Source: Branchiostoma floridae (taxonomy: Eukaryota > Chordata > Leptocardii > Amphioxiformes > Branchiostomatidae). Taken from it: a stretch of DNA of 64,000 nt. The notes under the pieces were generated by a model. The model was not told where the DNA came from. It saw only the letters and a list, made by a program, of their open reading frames with translations, and made no database searches. Below are positions 7,930 to 51,180 of the stretch, in pieces. A program made the translations under genes and the position numbers. The first letter of the stretch is position 1. Each line of letters begins with the position of its first letter. Location: the NCBI RefSeq assembly GCF_000003815.2, contig NC_049985.1:7378066-7442065 (forward strand). Reading direction: 5' to 3'.

Positions 7930-9818
7930 TTCACTCACTCACTCACACAGAGCATATCACATACAGTGTACATGTACCTGGGGACAGTCCACAGTCGGGG
8001 TTACACTGACAGAATCTCTGGGAGAATTTCTCCACTAGTTTCTGAAGGTAGTCCCCCCTCTCCTCAGGCGCGTGAATAGTCAGGAAGAACTTTCGCAGGG
8101 CGTTGGGGAGGAACTGGTTCCTGTAGTTCTGACGAATGACTAGATCATCCAGAACATCTGGCCTGGGTAGAGAAAAGAAACTTTCAGCACTTACAACCTT
8201 ACAAGTTACATATAAAAATAATTATGGCTATTTTCACTTAAGCTCATGCAAATGTTTGCCTGCTTGCCTGTGTGTCTGTCTGTGTTTCTGACATCATGAC
8301 CATAAATTAAAGCTGCATGGGTGATTACATCATATAGGTTCTAATTATGTAGACCAGTTGAGGGCTGTTATCTCTGATTGCCCTGATGCCTATAGTATGG
8401 TATATGTATGTAACTTGATATAGCTTTCACAGAATGTTTTTACATTGAACAAGCTGTGTTTGAAAGATGCCCATGCAGAGGAAAATCATAATGCCACACA
8501 ATCATACTGTACCTGTTTTCTAGGAAGATACGGAGGGGTTTCCATCTGAGGGTTTGTGTGCCATGGATAAAAGCTGCCAGCTCTCTGGGGTGGTTATCCA
8601 ACACACCCTGGGCAACCAGGTACTCAATACCCTGTGAGGAATAGGAAACACAAGGTTCATGTACTTGTAATATGGCCTCAACCATCAGCAGCAAATGAAT
8701 GAGCTCACCCACTGTCTGTAGTAATAGCTAAATTAATTCATGGAATGCAAGGTTTAGCAACATCTACATGTACTGTCTGATTGATCCCACTTCTGACACC
8801 ATGTTGTGGAATCAGATGCGTAACATGTCAAAGTTGCATGCTCCTGGCCATCTCTATGTATTGCCAACGGCCTTTTAAACTTTCAAATAGTGTAGCAGAA
8901 TTCACTGATAGTGTAGTAGAATCCACTTACTGACTCGGGGTCTGCATTAAAGGTTAGAGAACCTTCATCTAAGATAAGGTACAGTCTCCTGAAGGAAAAG
9001 TTAGCATCTCTCTGCTTTCTGTAGATGGTGGCATAGTTCCAGGTGGCTTTGCAAAGTCTAAGAACAAACAAGACATAATGTATCATCATTCATCAACAAC
9101 ATATTACTTCTAAGTATATATTATACTGTTGACTAGCAAATCTTTGTTTAGTACAAACTTTTTGAACAATCTTTGATCAAACACTCTTATCCAAAATGTT
9201 CACATTAGTAGGAGTACCTGATAATCTTTTCAAAAAATAAATTTCCAGTCCCGGTGTAAAATACATTTATACAAGGAGGTTGAAAGAGGGGTTCAACCTC
9301 CTTGATTTATATCAATGACTACTGGAGACTCCAGCCAGTTGTTGTGATAAAGTATGCAATGATAATGTTTAGATTTTAAGATTTTTTAAAAGCTGATTAA
9401 ATGTTTAAACTGCACATGCACAACAAGACGTATTGTGGGTAATATGTCAAAGTCCCAAACTTCCACTAACAGTTCTTGTCCTCTCGATGTTTTATACTTG
9501 TTTCTTTATGTCTCAGGGGCCTTCGACTTTGACATATTCAGTAACCCACAACGCATCTGGCGTGCATGCTCAGTTTGAACTGTGAACTAGCTTATTGTCA
9601 CAAACTCACCCCATCCACAGGACATCATCGTTGGCCATGTTCCACACACAGGAGGCCAAACACAGGTCTGTGGCATTCAGGTGCTTCAGGACGGCCATGC
9701 CCACTTCCGGGGGGAGGGTTTCCAGGTCTGGGAACTTCTGCTGATCCCGGTGGTGGTGCCTCCCCCTCCGAAGTTTTAACCTCTCCGCATGCAGCATGTG
9801 TCCCAGAGAATGTCCCAT
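7443..9818 (-). CDS. FBXO8: F-box only protein 8 (F-box plus Sec7-like domain), 5 coding exons
   Basis: Coding exons on the minus strand are 9610-9818, 8931-9057, 8513-8631, 7978-8162 and 7443-7636; every junction has GT/AG and the phases agree, giving 277 residues and a TGA stop. Residues about 29-70 form the F-box (LPPEVGMAVLKHLNATDLCL), which in the family recruits SKP1/CUL1 ubiquitin ligase. The rest matches the Sec7-like region of FBXO8, including DEGSLTFNADPES, NYRNQFLPNALRKFF and SSPHVKNKMSKREFI. Vertebrate FBXO8 is known to promote ubiquitination of ARF6. The start ATG at 9818 is chosen because MGHSLG resembles the vertebrate N-terminus. The protein is shorter than the human one (about 320 residues), mostly between the start and the F-box. 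Identity by family resemblance is very secure; catalytic exchange activity is not implied. Confidence 0.93.
7879..7950. repeat. CA/TCAC microsatellite
   Basis: A GCAC/CA-rich run passes into an uninterrupted CA dinucleotide tract and then CACT/TCAC repeats. It lies in FBXO8 intron 4, about 30 bases downstream of the exon 4 donor. Confidence 0.9.
9403..9585. mobile_element. Palindromic MITE-like element
   Basis: The left arm (GTTTAAACTGCACATGCA, then TGTGGGTAATATGTCAAAG) is matched in inverted form by the right arm (CTTTGACATATTCAGTAACCCACA ... TGCATGCTCAGTTTGAAC in pieces). The arms have mismatches and small indels. Part of the centre (GGGGCCTTCRACTTTGACATAT) also occurs near 34.09 kb. It is a degenerate inverted-repeat element with no coding capacity, just upstream of the FBXO8 exon 2 acceptor. 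Exact ends are uncertain. Confidence 0.55.
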
Positions 9819-10684
9819 CGCCTGTGGTTGTTTGCTACTTGGTTTTACACAAATGTGTGGCTACAGAAAGGATTTAGGAATAACATAATAAATTGAATGT
9901 GACTTAAAACAATTTGGAATCATTAACATTTCTTCAAATCTGGTAGGCATAACACATCAGCTTTGCAGGCATGTGGTGGAGACTGGTCATATCATTATGA
10001 CATACAGCATGAACGACTCTTTACGATAAATTCTGAAAGGCAGCGGCTACATACTTCCATAATAACATTAACTTTGTCAGGTTGGGTTTGCTTTATGCTA
10101 AATAATTAATTCAACTACTAGTTGACTATATGTTGATTACACCAATCATGCTCTAACAGTTATAGTACTAGTAAATCTAAGTGAACTCTGCCTACAAATT
10201 TCATGGAATTACAACGGCTGATTACGCTCTATGTAGCAATTAACTTTACTGCCATTGGAAGAGGCCCCAACCGTAACATTGGATGACAACCACTTTCACT
10301 TGAATAGTTTGTGGAAGAAATTATCGTAACTCGTAATAGATACACATATAGCATTTGTAATTAACTTCAAACCATGCTGGGCTTACGTTTGTATGTAGTT
10401 TGTACGTCTGAAATGCATATCTGATAAACTGCAATGTTGAGGCCGTTCAGAGATCTTATGACCCTTGACATTAATTAAAACAAGTTGTACTTGTATTGTC
10501 ACAAGAGTCAGCCTTGCCTTGTATTCAGATAATCACTTTCAAATGTTTATGTTTACATCTACAGAAACCCTCAATGTTTTATTCACAGGGTCTCTTCTGA
10601 GTTATGTGCAGTTAAACTAAATATTTCTAAAAGCCATATAACGTTGCTGCTAGTTTATATTACGTTGATTTTGATGACACAATA

Positions 10685-14631: not shown

Positions 14632-14773
14632 TGCGGGGGGGGGGGCTTTCAGGTACTTTTCATCGGCCCCTTCAGCAGTCAAGTGATTTTACATGTGGAC
14701 CAGCGGGGGGGGGGGCTTTCAGGTACTTTTCATCGGCCCCTTCAGCAGTCAAGTGATTTTACATGTGGACCAG
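14632..14773. repeat. Two exact 70-bp direct copies headed by poly-G
   Basis: Two adjacent copies each start with a G run of ten or more bases, continue CTTTCAGGTACTTTTCATCG and end TTTTACATGTGGACCAG. They are identical by eye apart from G-run length. This lies about 110 bases upstream of the first NXPE exon seen; it may be a recent duplication or an assembly artefact. Confidence 0.85.
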
Positions 14774-14884
14774 TCGTATTTGGAAAAATGTCTTACCAAA
14801 TTGAACTGGCCATAACGAAATTTTTGTGAGGACATTCAACATTTTGATGTGACTTGTCTTACCATGTCATTTTCTGCTTCACAG

Positions 14885-17800
14885 ACTTTTGAATTCTTGT
14901 TTGTGACGTTGGACAATGTCGAAATCCCGAAGCTACTGCTCAAACCTCGCCTCTTTCGGCGGGTTGAAACCAGAAAATACAACACGGACAAGCCTCCTCA
15001 ACTCAAGCAAGTTAGCCCGCCAAACGACATGACGACTACAACCCCTCATGAGTACCAAGAGTTTGTACCATTAACAAACATCACGACGACAAAACCTCAC
15101 CAACTGAAGCATACAAAACCCCTAAACAGCTCGACAAATAGCCCCCCTCAACTGAAGCAAGTGAGCCAATCAAACAACACAAAACCTTGTGAACTAAAGC
15201 ACGTCACTTGCCCCCCAAAGACAAAAACAGTCGTGTTAAACGGAGACCGCCTATATCACAAAGGTGACGACCTTACCGTGAGGGTGGTGGCAAGAGACGA
15301 AGGAGGAAGACCGAAGACGTACGGAGGAGACTTTTTCCGTGCCAGACTGGTCAGTACTGACCGTTTGCCACTGGCCAGTAGCGCTGGCCATGTCACTGAC
15401 CACTCTAACGGCACCTACACCATGCAGTTCCCACTCTACTGGACAGGGAACATCTCGGTGAGTACGGATTTTTTAGGGACGTAGAGAAGTCTCTTATCAG
15501 GGGCTAAACTAGCATTTTGTGATGTTGCCATGTCTTTTTCAGTGTATATTTACAGCTATTTTGTCCTTTCCCTCCACGTATCTGCGACTGTCTATTGATA
15601 ATGCATAGTCACGATAATGCATCCGCAGTTTTTCTGTGCACTAAGAGGCATTGTACAACATTAGAGACATGTGTTGCTTTCTCTACATAGTAAAACTATT
15701 TTTTTTATCTAATCAGATAAAAATCCAACTCGTACATCCAAGTGAAGCAGTGGCGGTTCTACAGAGAGTGCGGGAGACTCCAAACAAGAGAGTCTTCAAC
15801 TGCAGCTTCGTTGACCTAACGACGAATGCTACACAAACACGACAATGCTACAGCTCCATCGATGCCAGCATGACACCTCGCCAATTGTGCGATCTTTCAA
15901 AACGGGACGTGAACGTAACTTGGATTTGTGAGAAACCGGACAAACTCCCGTGCTCCACCATCTCAATGTGCCATTATGCCAGTACCACGAGCAGAGTAAA
16001 GACGCTGGGCCTTTTGTCTCAAAGGGAACTTTTCCAAGAGTAAGTCCTCATTTTTTTCGGTGGGTCCTTCAAAATCTCCCCTTTCCCCTGGAGAAAACTC
16101 CTCACCTTCGTTCTTCTTCGGGAACAAAGTATATATTTGACGGGGGCAAAGCAGGATACGAATAATATCGATATATCCTATTCTATAACACTTTCTCTCC
16201 CTAGTCCTCTTGATGGATTTGTACATAACATGACGCTACCAATGCAAGTATGCATACGTGTATAGGTATATTTGCATTAAAAAATGTGTTTGCAACGCAT
16301 CATCTTCCACACAACCAGATGTATAGAAAATGTATGTCGATTTACCTATGAATCGTTTATTTCCACGCCCGCAGGCCTTACATAGAGGAGGAACTTAAAG
16401 TAGAGACCAAAGAGCCCATACGTGTCCTTGAGACAGAGCTGGCCATACCTCAACACCTTCCAGCGTGTACGTGGGACAAGTCTGCAGCTCAGGGGTACTG
16501 GTCGGGCAAGGTCTGGCAGTCTTCGGTCTGTGATGTCCGAGTGTTCTCTAAGAACGACATCAGACAGTGCCTGGCTAATAAGACCGTGTATATGTACGGT
16601 ACGTATCACTGGCGGCCACGGTTGTGACATAATGCATAATGATGCTTCTGGTTGGGAGAACACTTGCAAGTCCGACAGTAAATGTTGCTCAGTCTGTATT
16701 TTGATAGTCTCTTCGGCGGGGCGATAAGTTGCTCTCTGATGTTCATTAATTATTGTACTATGTACAAAAATGAAAAAGATCCTTCCTGATTTTGTAACCC
16801 ATTTATACTACTTACTGCTAATTCTAATTATTTGATATCTTTGCCAAAAAAGGACTGTCTGTCTGTGATGAACACCCATAACGCGAGACGTCGTAGACGA
16901 ATGTCTATATAATCTGAATTGGAAGGGGTTGACAAAATAAGAAATAAAAAAACGTTTAGATCATGTGTATGGACTCCTTGCAGCTTTCCATGGTACTGCA
17001 GAAAAACTCCCAGTTCTTATATCTTGTGTTCCTGATTTTTAAAGATGGATACCTCTCGGGGCAGAGAGTACTGAAGTGGTCACGGTAGCTTTAGGATCCC
17101 GGATGGTCATAGAATTACATGCATTTTTTGCACTTTTCTATTCCTCTATTGTAGGTGACTCGACAATTAGACAATGGTACCTGCGTTTGAAGAAGGTATT
17201 GCCGTTGTTCAACGATAATAGGACCATGGATTCAACAGGTTTGTAAGCGTTTCTTAATGGCCTTTCCATGGCTGCTCTTGATAACAAGTGTACATCATGA
17301 AAATATAGTGGTTATACACAACCAGAGTCCGTCACCTTCCCAAAGGCAATACTGATCCAACCTCGCATTGCAGCTAGTTCTCGCTCCTGCAGTGCGAAAA
17401 ATGCATCCCCCTCACCACGGTTCATGCAGGTAAGGAGGTGCTTTGAATGCTTTTACGCAAAGATCGCCATACGGACGCCCAGTAACAAGAATTAACCCAG
17501 AATCGGTAATTTTTTTTGTTTTGTTTGCAGTCCTTCTAGGAGGAGACAACAGCCAGTGGAACATCTCTGTTCGCTACCGGTTCCACCACTTCCCCATTCA
17601 AACAAGGGGATGGGTTGATTTCCGTCAGCTCCGTTACATTGCTGATGAGCTGGACGCCATTCACGGAGGACCAAACACGGTAATATTTTTGGGTCTGTGG
17701 GCGCACTTTACGGCAGATCCGCTCGAGATGATCCAGTCGCGGCTGTACGCCATACGGGGCGCCGTGCATCGTCTCAAGCAGAGGAGTCCCGGTACGCGGG

Positions 17801-18063
17801 TCTTCGTGAGAACTGGGACAACGCGAGAACACAGTGGAGTGCGCTTGGAGTACTACCTGCTTGGGAGCGACTGTCTGGCTTACCAGATCACGGAGGTGAT
17901 ACGAGAGATGTTCCGGGCGGATCCTGACGTGGTCGTGTTGGACACATGGGACATGAGCGTGTGTCAGCCCGGCAAGGACAGCGTTCACCCAGATCAAACG
18001 ATGGTGGACAATCAACTCAACATACTGTTCTCTCATATCTGCCCAAACAAAACGGCTTCATAA
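14885..18063 (+). CDS. NXPE family protein (neurexophilin-like plus PC-esterase), N-terminus missing
   Basis: Exons: 14885-15457, 15717-16039, 16375-16598, 17155-17238 and 17531-18063 (TAA). All junctions are GT/AG and in phase, giving 578 residues. The first exon begins at a clear acceptor (GCTTCACAG), so upstream sequence with the expected signal anchor was not found. A Thr/Pro/Lys-rich stalk precedes an immunoglobulin-like neurexophilin segment (VRVVARDEGGRPKTYGGDFF, then NGTYTMQFPLYWTGNISI). The PC-esterase part shows the GDS block (MYGDSTIRQWYL) and the C-terminal DxxH pair (DSVHPDQ), so catalytic Ser and His are retained. NXPE proteins are secretory-pathway proteins; the esterase fold acts on modified glycans in related families, but the substrate of this one is unknown. 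Which NXPE paralogue it is cannot be said. Confidence 0.88.
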
Positions 18064-18841: not shown

Positions 18842-21800
18842 CTAGGCGACAGGATTCCTGGGAACCATCTCAGTTGCAACAAGTGAGTCCTCTGGGTCAT
18901 ACAGATGCTCTGCAACAAGACAAAAACAAGATCTGATTTAGGGATATCTTTACAAATACTGAATTCCTTGCAAATATCCAAGACAGAGGTAGAGTTAGGT
19001 AAAGGTAAGGAAGTCAACAGAGGTGAAGCGTCATCCTTTTTTTCAACTAAGCTAGTGGTACATCAATGAAGATATACATCCAGATGATAAGATATGCCAA
19101 AAAGCAGTTACTCAAGTAATTGGATATGATTTTGGAAATGGTCAGACGTTTCAGACATCATCAGGTGCCTTCTGTCAGTGACACAGGAGAGATCTTGTTG
19201 CAGAGAGTTTTCATATCCTGGCTATGAATTGAGATTTTCTGAAAGTCAATATGGGTGCTAAATTTGGAGTCTTTTTTCCCATAGCCGTACATGCCCTTTG
19301 CAAGGAATAACAAATGCATCAAATCACACCAACACAAATTCCTTTTGCACTTTAAAGAGAAAGTAATGGATATCGAGGAGTTTAACTGCATCTCAAACTA
19401 CCCTTTCAAGGAATCAAGACGTCAGCATGTCTAAAGGTCGCCATGTAATTTTCAGCTCACTAACAGTACTGTAGAGCCTACTTAGCACTAAGCTGGATTC
19501 TAACAGACCTCCACAGGAGCACTTCTAGACACAGGGTCTGGATTTTTTCTTTTCGAAACAGCAGGACATAATACTTCTTTTACAGCTGCACACTTAAGCA
19601 AATTCATCCAAGACATTTAATTTTAGTGCAAGTGATATGCCCCCCCCCCCCCAAAAAAGAAATAGGAAGATGTTGTTAATTTAGATTGAAAGTTCATCTC
19701 TGTTGCTAGAATTCATTCTGTATTAGGATCAAACTATAATCTAACGCATAACTTTTTTCGAGGGGAGAAAAGAAGCCATTACATGAAGGCTTAATAACTA
19801 TCCGTGAACAGACACGAGGGAAGCCATAAACTTTCTGCAACTTTTAATGTACGAGTCACAGGTCCTACCTCCAAAGTGACATTATATTACAATGGATTGG
19901 CTCATGGCTTGACAAAACTTGTGCTGTTCAGTTAAACTTTTTGGTTTATGAGTTTGGGTTTGAACCTTTATTTACTCATGACAAGCTTAAATCAGAGATA
20001 CAAATTACATCAAGTCCTAATAAATCTATCAAAATATATCGTTACATATGTTTAAAATTATACCTCAATCCTGCTACAGAAACTGTAGTAACGTGTGTAC
20101 CTGAGGTGTGGTCTACTGTTGGATTGAGTGCCACGATGAGCCAGCCCAGGATAGCCCCTCCCACCCTCATGGTGTTGATGATCCTCCAGATGTACAGTCT
20201 GTTGGCAGCATCTGAATCCGTCCTGTAAGGAACCAGATAGTCAAGCAGGCAAAGAGATTGTGTATAGAGTTATTTGTATGCAAGTTCACACACTAAATAT
20301 AGAATACAACATGGTGTATTCCGTATTACCTGAGGTACCAGCCTGACTGCTTTGGATTGCCCAAAGGCCAGAGGGCGATCAAACCCGAGCGAAGGCTGGG
20401 ACCAAGGGTGAACTTTATTTATGTCATACCCAGGTGGGGAAACACTGATTTGATTTCCAAACTACTCATAAAAAGGGATAAAATTTGACACATTGTTTCA
20501 ACCTGCACTAAGAATTCTATTCTTTAAGAACATTGAATCGAGAAAAATCCAGCCAGCCAATGTGACCACTTTTAGGGGGCCCTTAGATAATTGTTACAAG
20601 ACGACCTGTCTACAGTGTGCACCAGGATTTTGCCATCTTAAAAATGCTGTCCACTTGAGTCTTAGTTTCTTCAGGTATATGCACACCAGATGTAAGAGTC
20701 CATTGACTCCATTCTTGTACTAAAATAAGGTATAAGGTATAAGCACATGGAACAATGTGACAAATGTGCCAATACGTTAACAAAGACAGTAAAAACTAAC
20801 CAGAGGTTCTGATTGGTGGTTGCCACGGTAGCTGTACTGACGTCTGACGGCATGATGGTGGGAGCTGCGTCCACAAAAAGCCCTATTCTGTCATCTATAC
20901 TGGCTATACTCACACTGAAGATGATGGAAATCAGGTACACTGGAGGGGGGATCATAAAACATCAACTTGTGTCAGTTCCTGTGTAGCTTTAAGGCCGCAG
21001 TGATGGACAGTCAGGATTGGTCTATAGGTGTAAAGTCTGCAGTATTTTTTCTGTCTCTTTGAGAGAGGGAAATGCATTGAATGTGCAATTACTTTATCCT
21101 CCTTTCATCTGCATCATTCCTTTGGAATATTTTATACCTGGGACTGCACAGCAGTAATACATATGAACTGATTCTGCTTATACGTGGCTGTATCCTTCTT
21201 TAGCAGGAAAATTATGTTCTGTAAAAGTTAAACTACAATTCCAACACGAAATTGACTTNNNNNNNNNNNNNNNNNNNNNNNNNNNNNNNNNNNNNNNNNN
21301 NNNNNNNNNNNNNNNNNNNNNNNNNNNNNNNNNNNNNNNNNNNNNNNNNNNNNNNNNNTCCAGTCTTACGCAGCTTGTACTTACTTCACAAAACTGGTGT
21401 GTTACACCTAAAGGCAGTTTACAGTTTATGGAAACAAACAACTACATGTAAGGCCCTACCTGTCAAACACAGAGACTGTACAGATGGCGAGCAGCAGGTA
21501 GAACAGTGACTGTGCGGGCTGTGCCTTACCTGTCAAACACAGAGACTGTGCAGATGGCGAGCAGCAGGTAGAACAGTGACTGTGCGGGCTGTGCCTTACC
21601 TGTCAAACACAGAGACTGTGCACATGGCTGTGCCTTACCTGTCAAACACAGAGACTGTACAGATGGCGAGCAGCAGGTAGAAGAGTGACTGTGCGGGCTG
21701 TGCCTTACCTGTCAAACACAGAGACTGTGCAGATGGCGAGCAGCAGGTAGAACAGTGACTGTGCGGGCTGTGCCTTACCTGTCAAACACAGAGACTGTGC

Positions 21801-24800
21801 ACATGGCTGTGCCTTACCTGTCAAACACAGAGACTGTACAGATGGCGAGCAGCATGTAGAAGAGTGACTGTGCGGGCTGTGCCTTACCTGTCAAACACAG
21901 AGACTGTACAGATGGCGAGCAGCAGGTAGAACAGTGACTGTGCGGGTTGTGCCATACCTGTCAAACACAGAGACTGTACAGATGGCGAGCAGCAGGTAGA
22001 AGAGAGACTGTGCGGGCTGTGCCTTACCTGTCAAACACAGAGACTGTACAGATGGCTGAGCCTTACCTGTCAAACACAGAGACTGTACAGATGGCTGAGC
22101 AGCAGGTAGAACANNNNNNNNNNNNNNNNNNNNNNNNNNNNNNNNNNNNNNNNNNNNNNNNNNNNNNNNNNNNNNNNNNNNNNNNNNNNNNNNNNNNNNN
22201 NNNNNNNNNNNNNNNNNNNNNNNNNNNNNNNNNNNNNNNNNNNNNNNNNNNNNNNNNNNNNNNNNNNNNNNNNNNNNNNNNNNNNNNNNNNNNNNNNNNN
22301 NNNNNNNNNNNNNNNNNNNNNNNNNNNNNNNNNNNNNNNNNNNNNNNNNNNNNNNNNNNNNNNNNNNNNNNNNNNNNNNNNNNNNNNNNNNNNNNNNNNN
22401 NNNNNNNNNNNNNNNNNNNNNNNNNNNNNNNNNNNNNNNNNNNNNNNNNNNNNNNNNNNNNNNNNNNNNNNNNNNNNNNNNNNNNNNNNNNNNNNNNNNN
22501 NNNNNNNNNNNNNNNNNNNNNNNNNNNNNNNNNNNNNNNNNNNNNNNNNNNNNNNNNNNNNNNNNNNNNNNNNNNNNNNNNNNNNNNNNNNNNNNNNNNN
22601 NNNNNNNNNNNNNNNNNNNNNNNNNNNNNNNNNNNNNNNNNNNNNNNNNNNNNNNNNNNNNNNNNNNNNNNNNNNNNNNNNNNNNNNNNNNNNNNNNNNN
22701 NNNNNNNNNNNNNNNNNNNNNTGTCAAACACAGAGACTGTACAGATGGCCAGCAGCAGGTAGAACAGTGACTGTGCAGGCTGAGCCTTACCTGTCAAACA
22801 CAGAGACTGTGCTGGCTGTGCCTTACCTGTCAAACACAGAGACTGTGCTGGCTGTGCCTTACCTGTCAAACACAGAGACTGTACAGATGGCTGAGCCTTA
22901 CCTGTCAAACACAGAGACTGTACAGATGGCTGAGCCTTACCTGTCAAACACAGAGACTGTGCAGATGGCCAGCAGCAGGTAGAACAGTGACTGTGCGGGC
23001 TGTGCCTTACCTGTCAAACACAGAGACTGTGCTGGCTGTGCCTTACCTGTCAAACACAGAGACTGTACAGATGGCTGTGCCTTACCTGTCAAACACAGAG
23101 ACTGTACAGATGGCTGTGCGTTACCTGTCAAACACAGAGACTGTACAGATGGCTGTGCCTTACCTGTCAAACACAGAGACTGTACAGATGGTTGTGCCTT
23201 ACCTGTCAAACACAGAGACTGTGCAGATGGCGAGCAGCAGGTAGAAGAGTGACTGTGCGGGCTGTGCCTTACCTGTCAAACACAGAGAGAGACTGTACAG
23301 ATGGCTGTGTCTTACCTGTCAAACACAGAGACTGTATAGATGGCTGTGTCTTACCTGTCAAACACAGAGACAGTACAGATGGCGAGCAGCAGGTAGAACA
23401 GTGACTGTGCAGGTTGTGCCAGCCGGCTGTACTGCTGGAGGAAGTTCAGGTCTCCCTTCTCCGTCAGCAGGAAGACCACGATGCAGTGCCACAGCGAGTA
23501 CCCGGCTAGGATCCCGTGGCAGAACAGCGCAAACTTCTTGAACCCTCGATGAGTCGACTGCAACAGAGAAATTACCCCTTAGTATGCTAAGCTACATTGT
23601 ACAATATGTACCTACATGTATTGCAGTATACATATAAGGGCAAACCTGTTCTTGTCAGCTTTAACTGGACATCATGGCTATAATTGAGGGAACTCTACTG
23701 ACACTACAAAACTACATGGACTTTCCTATGGTCTTCTTTAACAGTACATATATGCAAGTCATTACATTTATGGACACCAGAATATGTATTTCCATTACTA
23801 TACTTCTATACTACAGTATTGTTTCAACTATGATTCCAAAAATACTGTGAAAACCTCCTCTATCCTACTGCAAGATAAAAACACTAATTGTAGTAACTGA
23901 ATTCACACTGTAGATGTAGCTGTAGACAGGAGGGTTAAGTTACCAGTGCCAGTTCCCCTGTAGTCCTGTCAGCCTTGTTCTGCTCGGCATATTCCTCGTC
24001 CGTCTCCTGTAACCGTGACAACCGGCGCCGCTGCTCCACCCGGAAACCACCTGTTGGTACAAGACCAGCATTCAGTTTTTGGCAACACCTCATGGGTGGA
24101 GCATATCTATGCTTGTCTGTGTTTCCATGATTCCCAATGCGTAAATGTATACACAAGGGAGCATTGCCATATGTGTAAAGTTCTGATGTTTCTAAATTTT
24201 ATCAGTGGAGTTGGAGGGGTTGTAAAGCAGTCTGGGTGGATATGAGTGAAGTCTGCCATCTTTGATTGCCTTGTTTGAAGCAAAGGAAACTTAAATGAAC
24301 TTTTGATTATGCTGCCAAGTTGAGAAAAGAAACTACATATTTCAGAAGAATATGACATGTATTCGTAGGTACATGATAATACCGCATTTTACATTCTATT
24401 TTCTTAAGACGAGGAGGGCACAAGATGTAGTGACACCAGGGTCCTAAGACTGACCTACTTGATGTACAGTACATTGTACATATACCAGGGAATATGAAAA
24501 ACTGTGTCTTACTTTTGGTTTCCACAAAGAGTGGTCCTACAGGCTGACTGGTCATGGAGGAGACCTTGTGTGGTTTCTGCACATCTGTCGTCTTGTCACC
24601 AACGATGATGTCCTCATCTGCTACCATGAAGTCTACTGAAACTGTAAGCAGAGGGAAAAAACAACTGTCACCCTTTTTTTTCTTCAGAAAATTGTTGTAC
24701 GGAATCATTTTGATGTCCTCATCCGCTACCATGAAGTCTACTGAAACTGTAAGCAGGCAGAAAAACAACTGTCAACATTACTTTCTTCAGAACATTGTTT

Positions 24801-27800
24801 AATAGAATCATTCTGATGTCCTCATCTCATCTGCTACTATTAAGTCTACTGAAACTGTTAACAGGCAGAACAAACAACTGTCAAACTTCTTTTCTTCAGG
24901 AAATTGTTGAACGGAATCATTTTGTGTACTTGACAAGATCTGAAGAAATGCAATTAAAGGCGTCTTATCTGACTGTAGACTAAGTATTTTCTGGAGTACA
25001 ATTGAGCAGCATAAAATGGTTCCTAGTAGAACAGTATAAACGCAGTCCTGAGATACTATAAGTCACAGGGTTATCAAGTTCTCTGTTTTTGCCATCACCG
25101 TGAATGTATCACTGTAATGATCTCAGTCTGTTTTGAGTCACATTGCTACAGAAACTAAGTAAGTTCAACCACAAACTCAAAGATAATACAAACACTTGAT
25201 TTTCATCATGTTACAATCTCTATAAGCAGATAAATTTGGCAGTATACACACCTTCTCCATCTGCTTGGTAGGCCTCATCGGCTGAATTCAGGGCAGTCCT
25301 GAAAAGAGGAGAGTACTGTAAGTCTTAAAACCCTTGCAGTGGTTTTATATTTGCAGTTCTGGTGGTGACCACCGCTGCAAATTGATGACACCAGGACTAT
25401 GTCTTTCTAAGGTTTTAATATGAATACTGCACTACTGAAGAGTTTCCAGGAACTTAAATCACTACAAAAACCCACCTTTCCCTCCCACCACATAATACCA
25501 CCGCAAAAGAAGTTTTATACAACAATTCTATACAAAAGTTACTCAAGTAACTGGATAGGTTTTATAAACAGTCAGGCGTTTCTGTACAACTATTAGTATT
25601 ACTGAACATGCTTGAACACCAAGCAAGCCAACTGATATTATATCAAATTACATGTACTTACAAACCAAGGGATAAGACAAGCAGTACAATTCTTTACCTG
25701 GCATTTTTCTTCTTCTTTTTCTTCCCAGGCTGGGGGCGTGGGGGTCTGGCCTTCTCACCTCCCTCCCCTTCCCCTTCTGCACTACCTTCCCCTTCCCCCT
25801 CTGGAACAACATGGACATGTCCATTCAAAGTCTTGTACTTACATACACTATATGACAGTATGGTTATCCGGTTGGTCTAAACCAATGCCAACATATAAAT
25901 GCCACATACTGCAATTCTTTATAGTTTTTTAAGGTTTGCAGTGGCTACTTCATGTGAACTGAAAACACTTTAAAAGGCATTTACAGCATCCAATTTTTTT
26001 GCAAATCCTCTGGGTCGGAGCCGGTATTATAGTATGGATTCTTTTAGCATTCCTTAGTCACATACATGTACCTTTCTATCATTCAATCATAGCTTTGAAG
26101 GACTCCCTTGGAAATCAGTTTCTCGAAAACTAAAGGGACCACCCTACAAGATTGATAAATAAAAAAAATAAAAAACTTAACCAGACAAAACCTAATCTAA
26201 GACAAGTATATTCATGACCATGTACCAGGTCTGGGCTTGGGTTTCCTACGCTTCTTCCCGGAGGAATCTGGAATCTCATCTATTCCCTCCTCACTCACCG
26301 ACCTCCGCACACGCGGGGACTTTGTAACACCTGAAAGAATGAAACTTGGAGTCAGATATAGTGACTCAATTACCTTCATTGCTACGATAATACATGCAGT
26401 TGAACATACGGTTGAATAAGACACCATCAGAATGTCAATATCATAAATGACGGCAAACATTTTATATAAATATCTCATACAGGTATCTAGCCAGGAAAGC
26501 TTCTCCATGTACTTGTATTTGATGCACTGAAAGAAAAATTAATTCTGTCGGATCTGACTATTCCCAAGACACACACATTTAGCATATCACAACATGGCCC
26601 AAACATGTAGTGAAAGTCTTTTGTTCACATTTGCACTTCTACCCAAACACAAACATGTGTACTTTGAAGGCAACACACGTGCATTACTATGGTCTGTAAA
26701 AGCAAGTTTACTAGTAAATAGTGATACCAGGGGACCCAAGACTGACCCTTGTGGTACCCCTGGTTGTAAAGAAGTTCAACACAGAATGACTGACATAAAT
26801 ACATGATTCACTCATGAAAAAGTCTTCATGGCTTATGATATGTTTGTTTATGAAAATGTGCATGTGACACATTTCTGATTTGTGAAAATGTGCATGTAGC
26901 TTACACTTAATCTGGGCCTTCCTGGCAGTACGAGGGGAGGGAGTGACTCCACTACTCTCACTGGTTTGTGTGAGGAAGGTGGTAACACCTTTAGGTACAC
27001 AGGAGAGAGTGACAGCAAGGAGAAAGTCAAGAAGGAAAAAAACACACACACAGAAAACAGTGTAGGATGGACAGGACAGGAAGGACTTTTTTGAAATTTA
27101 CCTGTGCCAAAAAAAAACCTGGAATTTTCTGACAGATGCTAAATTATAACAGTTACTACAGTCAGCATTCTACCAACTTTACAAACTTTTTTGTATTAAA
27201 GTATACATACGACACTGTTATGCACATAAACCCAACAGAAAACAAAATATCTGAAACATGCTCAAACCTTCTCTCTGCTGAAGTAGCCTTCTGACACTAA
27301 ATCATAAATGAGTATTGGTTTAACAGCAAAGAGATGGCTACATGTACATGCTTTCACAGTCTAATTTGTGATCCTTTTTAAACATGCTTTAAGAGTGTTG
27401 TATTACACAGAGAGGTCATATGCAGTCAACATGCCCGTCTTGTTTACAGAACTGACCCTGGCGAGAAACGTTACGCTTCGTTTTAGGAGAGGCTGCAGGA
27501 TTTCTGGTGTTCTCCCCTCGTCTGCCTAAACCGTTGCCAATAATGGATGGAGCATGGTTATGAGAAGGGGGAGGGGAAGCAGAGGTTGAAAGAGGGAAAA
27601 TTAATGATGACCCAGATGTAAAAACAAAGATGAAAGGGATATCTTAAAGCTACATTACAAAACGATCATCAATATGAAATCATGTGCAAGCATGTCTAAT
27701 CCTCGCACCACAGGAATAGTAGACAATAAACTGGAGTATAAAATCACATTCAAAATTCTTACAAAGTAGCAATATAACCTGTAACAACTTATCACAAATA

Positions 27801-50439: not shown

Positions 50440-50639
50440 GTAACAAGTTGTAACAGACTCTTTGTGTGATCTTTGGAGCTATGTCCAGTATCAGGGTGAA
50501 GTGCACGAAGTAAGGGTGTACGAAGTTGTACGAAGTTGTACTAAGTTACAACCGTTTCCCATTGGCTTTGAGGCTATATCAGGAGTAACAGATGACGTCA
50601 AAACATTTATTGGATGACGTAATCTAACTTCGTACAGTA

Positions 50640-51180
50640 GGCAGGGTAGGGTGTCAAGTGTACGAAGTTGTCCGAAGTTGTGCAAAGTTACGTGACATCA
50701 TCTAACTTCGGACAGTGGGCAGGGTAGGTCAACAAGTGTGCGAAGTTGTCCTACGTTGTGCAAAGTTACGTGATGTCATCTAACTTTGGACAGTGGGAAG
50801 GGTAGGTCAACAAGTGTGCGAAGTTGTCCTAAGTTGTGCAAAGTTACGTGACGTCATCTAACTTTGGACAGTGGGCAGGGTAGGTCAACAAGTGTGCGAA
50901 GTTGTCCTAAGTTGTGCAAAGTTACGTGACGTCATCTAACTTTGGACAGTGGGCAGGGTAGGTCAACAAGTGTGCGAAGTTGTCCTAAGTTGTGCAAAGT
51001 TACGTGACGTCATCTAACTTTGGACAGTGGGCAGGGTAGGTCAACAAGTGTGCGAAGTTGTCCTAAGTTGTGCAAAGTTACGTGACGTCATCTAACTTTG
51101 GACAGTGGGCAGGGTAGGTCAACAAGTGTGCGAAGTTGTCCTAAGTTGTGCAAAGCTACGTGACGTCATCTAACTTACGT
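50640..51180. repeat. 78-bp tandem repeat, about 7 copies, each with a CRE
   Basis: Units read TGTGCGAAGTTGTCCTAAGT + TGTGCAAAGTTACGTGACGT + CATCTAACTTTGGACAGTGG and so on. The five right-hand copies hold perfect TGACGTCA at 50849, 50927, 51005, 51083 and 51161; the two left copies have TGACATCA and TGATGTCA. Diverged precursor-like sequence continues left to about 50510. Confidence 0.95.

Follow-up and report, generated by a model that had tools for sequence, protein, structure and literature searches.

An exon-end splice donor repeated as a long mirage array in the amphioxus TMEM237 gene

The TMEM237 locus

In a 64-kb window of the Branchiostoma floridae genome (C7:7378066-7442065; "the window" denotes this whole stretch, and genome-wide searches covered 513 Mb), we identified a minus-strand gene in which the end of a coding exon, together with its splice donor, recurs at least 24 times within the next intron. 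The gene had been named TMEM237 in the original prediction, and a profile match of the joined peptide to PF15383 (E=4e-49) bears this out, the peptide having been joined without an exon hidden by an assembly gap and without the start of the exon that follows it. The features on which the analysis turns are as follows.

24606..24924, minus strand: acceptor-side mirage, an intron end and exon start present three times (from sequence)
24513..24641, minus strand: TMEM237 exon; its 5' edge recurs in the acceptor-side mirage (from sequence)
23355..23557, minus strand: TMEM237 exon of 203 nucleotides (nt), its 3' edge the putative seed of the array (from sequence and the PF15383 peptide)
21459..23354, minus strand: donor-side mirage array with 24 visible decoy donors and units of 70, 39, 36 and 43 bp (from sequence)
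22114..22721, no strand: assembly gap of 608 N within the array (from sequence)
21259..21358, no strand: gap of 100 N at the place of the next exon, which a copy on C1 shows there
20801..20938, minus strand: predicted exon after the hidden one, with acceptor TCCAG|TGTACC (from the reading frame after the hidden exon)

The exon at 23557-23355 ends in phase 2, reading TTT GAC AG|GTAAGA, with CAG|GTAAGA as its real donor. The exon hidden by the window's 100-N gap is 77 nt long on the C1 copy (C1:26221027-26221103). An acceptor at 20914, considered for the exon following, was dropped, given that the next exon sits in this gap and the one after begins at 20938. The donor of the exon pair listed first for the gene (27525-27457) is doubtful.

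Anatomy of the donor-side array

As predicted, an exon edge with its intact donor has here been turned into a minisatellite of more than twenty tandem units. Twenty-five donors are visible, comprising the real donor and 24 decoys, the latter count being a lower bound as 608 N interrupt the array, and GT is kept in 25/25. Successive donors are separated by 23 complete units (39 bp in ten, 70 bp in nine, 36 bp in three and 43 bp in one), and two further units are cut by the gap. Agreement among the 70-bp units averages 96.8%, and a 179-bp higher-order block (70+70+39) recurs along the array. The donor motif is CAGGTAAGG in 20/25 and CAGGTAAGA in two, namely the real donor and the first decoy; three of the 25 are weaker when scored with human weights. 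With motifs the same or nearly the same as that of the real donor, the decoys could bind U1, as had been proposed.

The array exceeds chance, as seen both from Tandem Repeats Finder scores of up to 1019 and from the concentration of strong donor sites: 20 of the window's 22 minus-strand sites that equal or exceed the score of CAGGTAAGG fall within it. A genome-wide search with a 23-bp core returned 34 exact matches, 21 at the window locus and 13 on C1. For exact matches, then, 34/34 of those returned correspond to two TMEM237 loci, and a unit scattered across the genome, a possibility that the original prediction had itself raised, was not observed. The unit spans the exon-intron boundary, and the functional TMEM237 coding exon directly adjoins the first unit and forms the end member of the array, as had been noted. 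Minisatellite-like repeats over an exon-intron boundary, splice signals in many units and a functional exon as end member are features common to this locus and to the "mirages" of amphioxus genes, and the TMEM237 array is a further, long case of these already described elements.

Antisense to the array, positions 22771-23241 (plus strand) form an open frame of 157 codons, which reflects the predominance of 36- and 39-bp units in that part; we found no sign of a gene there.

A second TMEM237 copy on C1

A TMEM237 family search returned 18 matches, 10 in the window and 8 on C1, where the gene is represented by a 3835-bp piece (C1:26218058-26221892; L009) flanked by two 100-N gaps. This piece matches within the window's gene only, with no contiguous matches outside it. 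Its ends are near-identical to the window (98.97% over 972 and 99.84% over 640 positions), and its middle is diverged, with many insertions and deletions. The array on C1 is gap-free and contains 12 decoys, with successive unit lengths of 70, 70, 70, 70, 39, 39, 39, 70, 39, 70, 39 and 70 bp. All of its donors (13/13) are CAGGTAAGG, and the array makes up 685 of the 966 nt of the intron.

The C1 piece probably stems from the other haplotype as a contig placed wrongly, and as such would be useful for mending the reference. Array length, too, probably varies, with 12 decoys on C1 versus at least 24 in the window, in line with the earlier expectation of a polymorphic copy number; variation between haplotypes holds only as far as the C1 piece is the other haplotype, as we infer. 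Alternatively, and as placement on another contig would allow, the C1 copy could be a true second gene piece arising from a recent duplication, in which case length polymorphism would be unproven. We regard this as unlikely in view of the confinement of the piece to the interior of the gene, between two gaps, and of its near-identical ends around a diverged, indel-rich middle, as in a haplotype mosaic.

Probable origin of the units and possible exchange with the exon end

The long unit corresponds to the exon from GGCACAACC (GGCACAGCC in the unit) up to a point shortly beyond the donor. The intron following the last unit reads GTAGGGCCTTAC, which makes GGC a possible founding homology. Most likely, the array was born by slippage: a segment starting ~66 nt upstream of the exon end and reaching a few nt beyond the donor would have been duplicated via very short homology, the candidate being GGC of exon TGGCAC with GGC of intron TAGGGC, and then enlarged by slippage and unequal exchange until, on the C1 copy, it occupied most of the intron. 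The short units would derive from long ones through deletions between short direct repeats. The 39-bp unit is the long unit minus 31 bp between two GCC, a loss that the original prediction had already noted; the 36-bp unit is consistent with the loss of 34 bp between two GCACAGTC and a single further change, and unit 14b seems to combine a long with a short unit, as a hybrid would.

Comparison of the two copies also revealed variants common to exon and array. At exon positions 173 and 185 the window exon has C and T, and the C1 exon has G and A. Like the C1 exon, 7/7 long C1 units have G at 173, as against 2/10 long units of the window (Fisher p=0.002), and 7/7 also have A at 185. Over 56 nt, window unit 14a is identical to the C1 exon end, and both carry a T at 146 that is found in 0/16 other long units. 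Excluding the hybrid unit 14b and a misaligned part of unit 2, distinct exonic variants in the long units of both copies are synonymous in 7/9 cases (expected share 0.314, p=0.006), or in 7/11 when short units are included (p=0.03). Among variants present in at least two units the corresponding figures are 5/5 (p=0.003) and 5/6 (p=0.014). These patterns suggest that exon and array exchange sequence, such that array copies and the real exon end may occasionally replace one another; exchange of this kind would keep the units donor-like without selection on the decoys. In the globin BflGb6, homogenization is reported within the cluster and boundary copies are excluded from it (PMC3087553), whereas the C1 exon end of TMEM237 carries array variants. 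For boundary exclusion the present locus is mixed, the window exon keeping its T at 185 and the C1 exon matching its own units at both 173 and 185.

Predicted donor choice and consequences for the protein

Because the exon at 23557-23355 ends in phase 2, a message in which the real donor is skipped reads AGG TAA and its protein stops at VFDR. This stop lies before the first decoy, so the same truncation would result whichever decoy is used; read-through translations were viewed for 4/24 window decoys and 12/12 C1 decoys. Decoy use had been predicted to give either in-frame stops or a repeated peptide; the stops are borne out, and a repeated peptide from a skipped real donor is ruled out by the immediate TAA past the donor.

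The real donor and the decoys score alike (11.28 and 11.6, respectively, with human weights), and position should therefore decide between them. Introns of 386 nt before the exon and 966 nt after it, the latter on the C1 copy, provide an exon-definition setting, in which the exon would most likely be defined from the acceptor 203 nt upstream, the exon-proximal donor being used and the decoys leaving with the intron. For two identical CAG/guaagu sites placed 52 nt apart in human minigenes with 365-nt flanking introns, exclusive use of the upstream site is reported (PMC9225289). Mirages are likewise reported to leave regular splicing undisturbed, as judged from Adh3 data and from reverse transcription PCR of globins (PMC3087553), and the PGBD5 paper also calls splicing undisturbed, although it offers no RNA evidence from the repeat region itself (PMC3902484). 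Leakage past the real donor would lead to truncation at ...VFDR and probably to nonsense-mediated decay. The array is most likely tolerated rather than functional, and mostly silent. Overall, we consider it probable that the locus represents a slippage-born donor-side mirage in which the exon-proximal donor is used and exon and array occasionally exchange sequence.

Several points weigh against this explanation. The window exon has T at 185 and comparable window units have A in 24/24, as if the exon stood outside the exchange. Exonic and intronic columns of the long units show no difference in variability (Fisher p=0.61), one appearing (p=0.015) only with all units taken for the intronic part, and the variants that point to exchange are few and mutually dependent. 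With regard to donor choice, the downstream donor is reported as preferred under intron definition, and natural human events between donors of near-equal strength show an upstream preference of only ~60% (PMC9225289). Amphioxus VCBP genes possess intronic partial exons, and their templates are reported to yield diverse products in human cells (PMC2632668); the silence of mirages is therefore not assured.

The original prediction also held that the array might tune, buffer or damage splicing, which finds no support in the published record, where mirages are reported as silent (PMC3087553, PMC3902484) and the upstream donor as the one used in minigenes (PMC9225289). Tuning would require that the decoys retain U1 or act as competitors of the real donor, adjusting the TMEM237 message by copy number. 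The decoys are of full strength by motif, and each skip truncates the frame, so leakage would lower protein in a dose-dependent manner. On the other hand, the units are variable at donor positions +4, +5 and +6, with no sign of selection on the decoys, and the abundance of triple donors genome-wide (see below) points to a mutational cause and not to one specific to this gene. We consider tuning improbable.

Recursive splice sites carry AG directly before GT, and every unit edge of the array does so too (GACAG|GTAAGG). The real donor might accordingly join to the AG of a unit and regenerate an identical donor, such that the array is removed stepwise and its length is immaterial. Scored as acceptors, the 24 unit edges reach 4.94 to 6.31, within a range of -3.25 to 8.93 for the gene's own acceptors, which are partly unconfirmed. 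However, unlike recursive splice sites the unit edges have no strong pyrimidine tract, the tract before each AG being short and mixed (gtctctgtgtttgacag), and an AG before GT comes with any repeated exon end; stepwise removal is a very doubtful account. That the assembler inflated or invented the array, as the N gap inside it and the wrong draft assembly of one globin mirage, according to its authors (PMC3087553), might suggest, is extremely improbable, since both substitutions and deletions of several types distinguish the units and the second assembled copy carries its own gap-free array of 12 decoys, in place of the single copy that an assembly artefact had been expected to leave.

The acceptor-side mirage

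TMEM237 also possesses repeats over an acceptor. The real acceptor lies before 24641, and decoy acceptors lie before 24746 and 24854. The nearer decoy, if used, would extend the exon by 105 nt (35 residues) in frame and free of stops; the farther one would extend it by 213 nt that include stops. The C1 copy is identical over this mirage, and hence gives it nothing independent.

Tandem donors across the genome

A genome-wide search for three CAGGTAAG motifs separated by gaps of 20-50 nt returned 1586 matches (894+692), which are overlapping triples and not arrays, and 10 matches for the reversed motif. With one base changed (CAGCTAAG), the same arrangement returned 54 matches, and 2 reversed. 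As single motifs the three occur 11, 9 and 6 times in 234 kb (a genomic sample plus the window, with the array masked); single-motif frequency therefore explains little of the triple excess, and the numbers are small. Of the 1586 triples, 100 were listed, every one of them on C1; they group into ~12 clusters, and 42 of them form a single cluster. A scattered 51-bp family accounts for four clusters and TMEM237 for one, leaving seven others. As a rough inference by proportion, one to two hundred such arrays would exist genome-wide. Three of the seven other arrays adjoin sequences that read as exon ends of dynein heavy chains.

L040: dynein heavy chain exon end (E=4.5e-14; also PF12780)
L041: dynein heavy chain exon end (E=3.1e-13; no Pfam match)
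L044 (C1:221601-222200): dynein heavy chain exon end (E=5.7e-7; no Pfam match)
L043: family match short of the curated cut-off (PF15244, E=3.6e-5)
L046: family match short of the curated cut-off (TPR, E=0.002)
L042: open frame, no match in the family search
L045: array with no evident exon

L040 and L044 lie 17 kb apart and perhaps belong to one gene. These results suggest that exon-end donor arrays are common in this genome, and the 200-kb sample (20 stretches of 10 kb, including 27,403 N), which contains 16 separate minisatellite arrays, is too small to settle how general they are. A wider and tentative reading, to which we give somewhat less than even credence, is that exon-end donors are preferred birthplaces of minisatellites (perhaps at least 100 arrays), and that the exon end is itself an array member exchanged in both directions, making the array a reservoir of interchangeable exon ends of which the spliceosome uses only the first.

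Some further features of these arrays were observed. Reading on from the dynein exon end at L044 gives an in-frame repeated peptide (NLNTGESHLWVENLNTG). Phase-2 exon ends host four of the seven readable donor arrays (L040, L042, L046 and that at window position 23355). At such ends a skipped CAG|GTAAG immediately reads AGG TAA, and phase-2 ends are perhaps better at tolerating arrays, the numbers being too small to tell. Units of the 51-bp family (C1:9479866, 20224899, 20226107 and 29239901) carry CAGGTAAG and CAGGTGAG donors together with a pyrimidine tract and CAG, and resemble tiny introns in series. At L027, one of the 16 arrays of the 200-kb sample, a 194-bp tandem array (9186-10000) runs past the end of the locus; each of its units carries a strong donor, CAGGTGAGT, and no exon could be recognised.

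Relation to known mirages and repeat-derived introns

Mirages have been described in the amphioxus globins BflGb6 and BflGb9 (PMC3087553), in PGBD5 (PMC3902484) and, as cited in the PGBD5 paper, in troponin C; according to citing papers, Adh3 is another case (Canestro 2002). Reported unit lengths are 10-72 bp for Adh3 and 150-160 bp for the globins (PMC3087553), a range that includes the 36-70 bp of TMEM237, and the copy number of BflGb6 differs between haplotypes (6 and 3; PMC3087553). As far as the available accounts extend, the TMEM237 array has more copies than the globin and PGBD5 mirages (3-7 units), and unlike the described mirages TMEM237 combines mixed unit lengths, apparently produced by internal deletions, with the presence of mirages at a donor and at an acceptor alike. 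Introns gained or altered through tandem duplication or the expansion of repeats, in Cryptococcus (PMC2395259) and potato RdRp (PMC4974935), resemble TMEM237 in that duplication of AG|GT creates potential splice sites; those repeats are reported to have become used introns, whereas the extra sites of TMEM237 are known from sequence only.

In the literature searched (partial listings, with most subscription papers outside its coverage), we found no report of the TMEM237 mirage, of variants shared between exon and array, or of tandem donors in excess across the genome. Dozens of near-identical strong donors in series within one pre-mRNA, which itself exists in versions that differ in length, provide a natural experiment on how the spliceosome chooses the first of equals. 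If the genome-wide excess is true, many such experiments exist, and the arrays in question could give rise to new introns and to exon-end turnover.

Other repeats in the window

Two further repeats were observed in the window. At 50615-51176, a 78-bp tandem array of ~7 copies (96% matches) carries TGACGTCA in most units. At 14633-14773, an exact 70-bp duplication with a G run, which could be an assembly stutter, lies upstream of an NXPE-like gene identified by PF06312 and PF24536 matches at 14816-18060.

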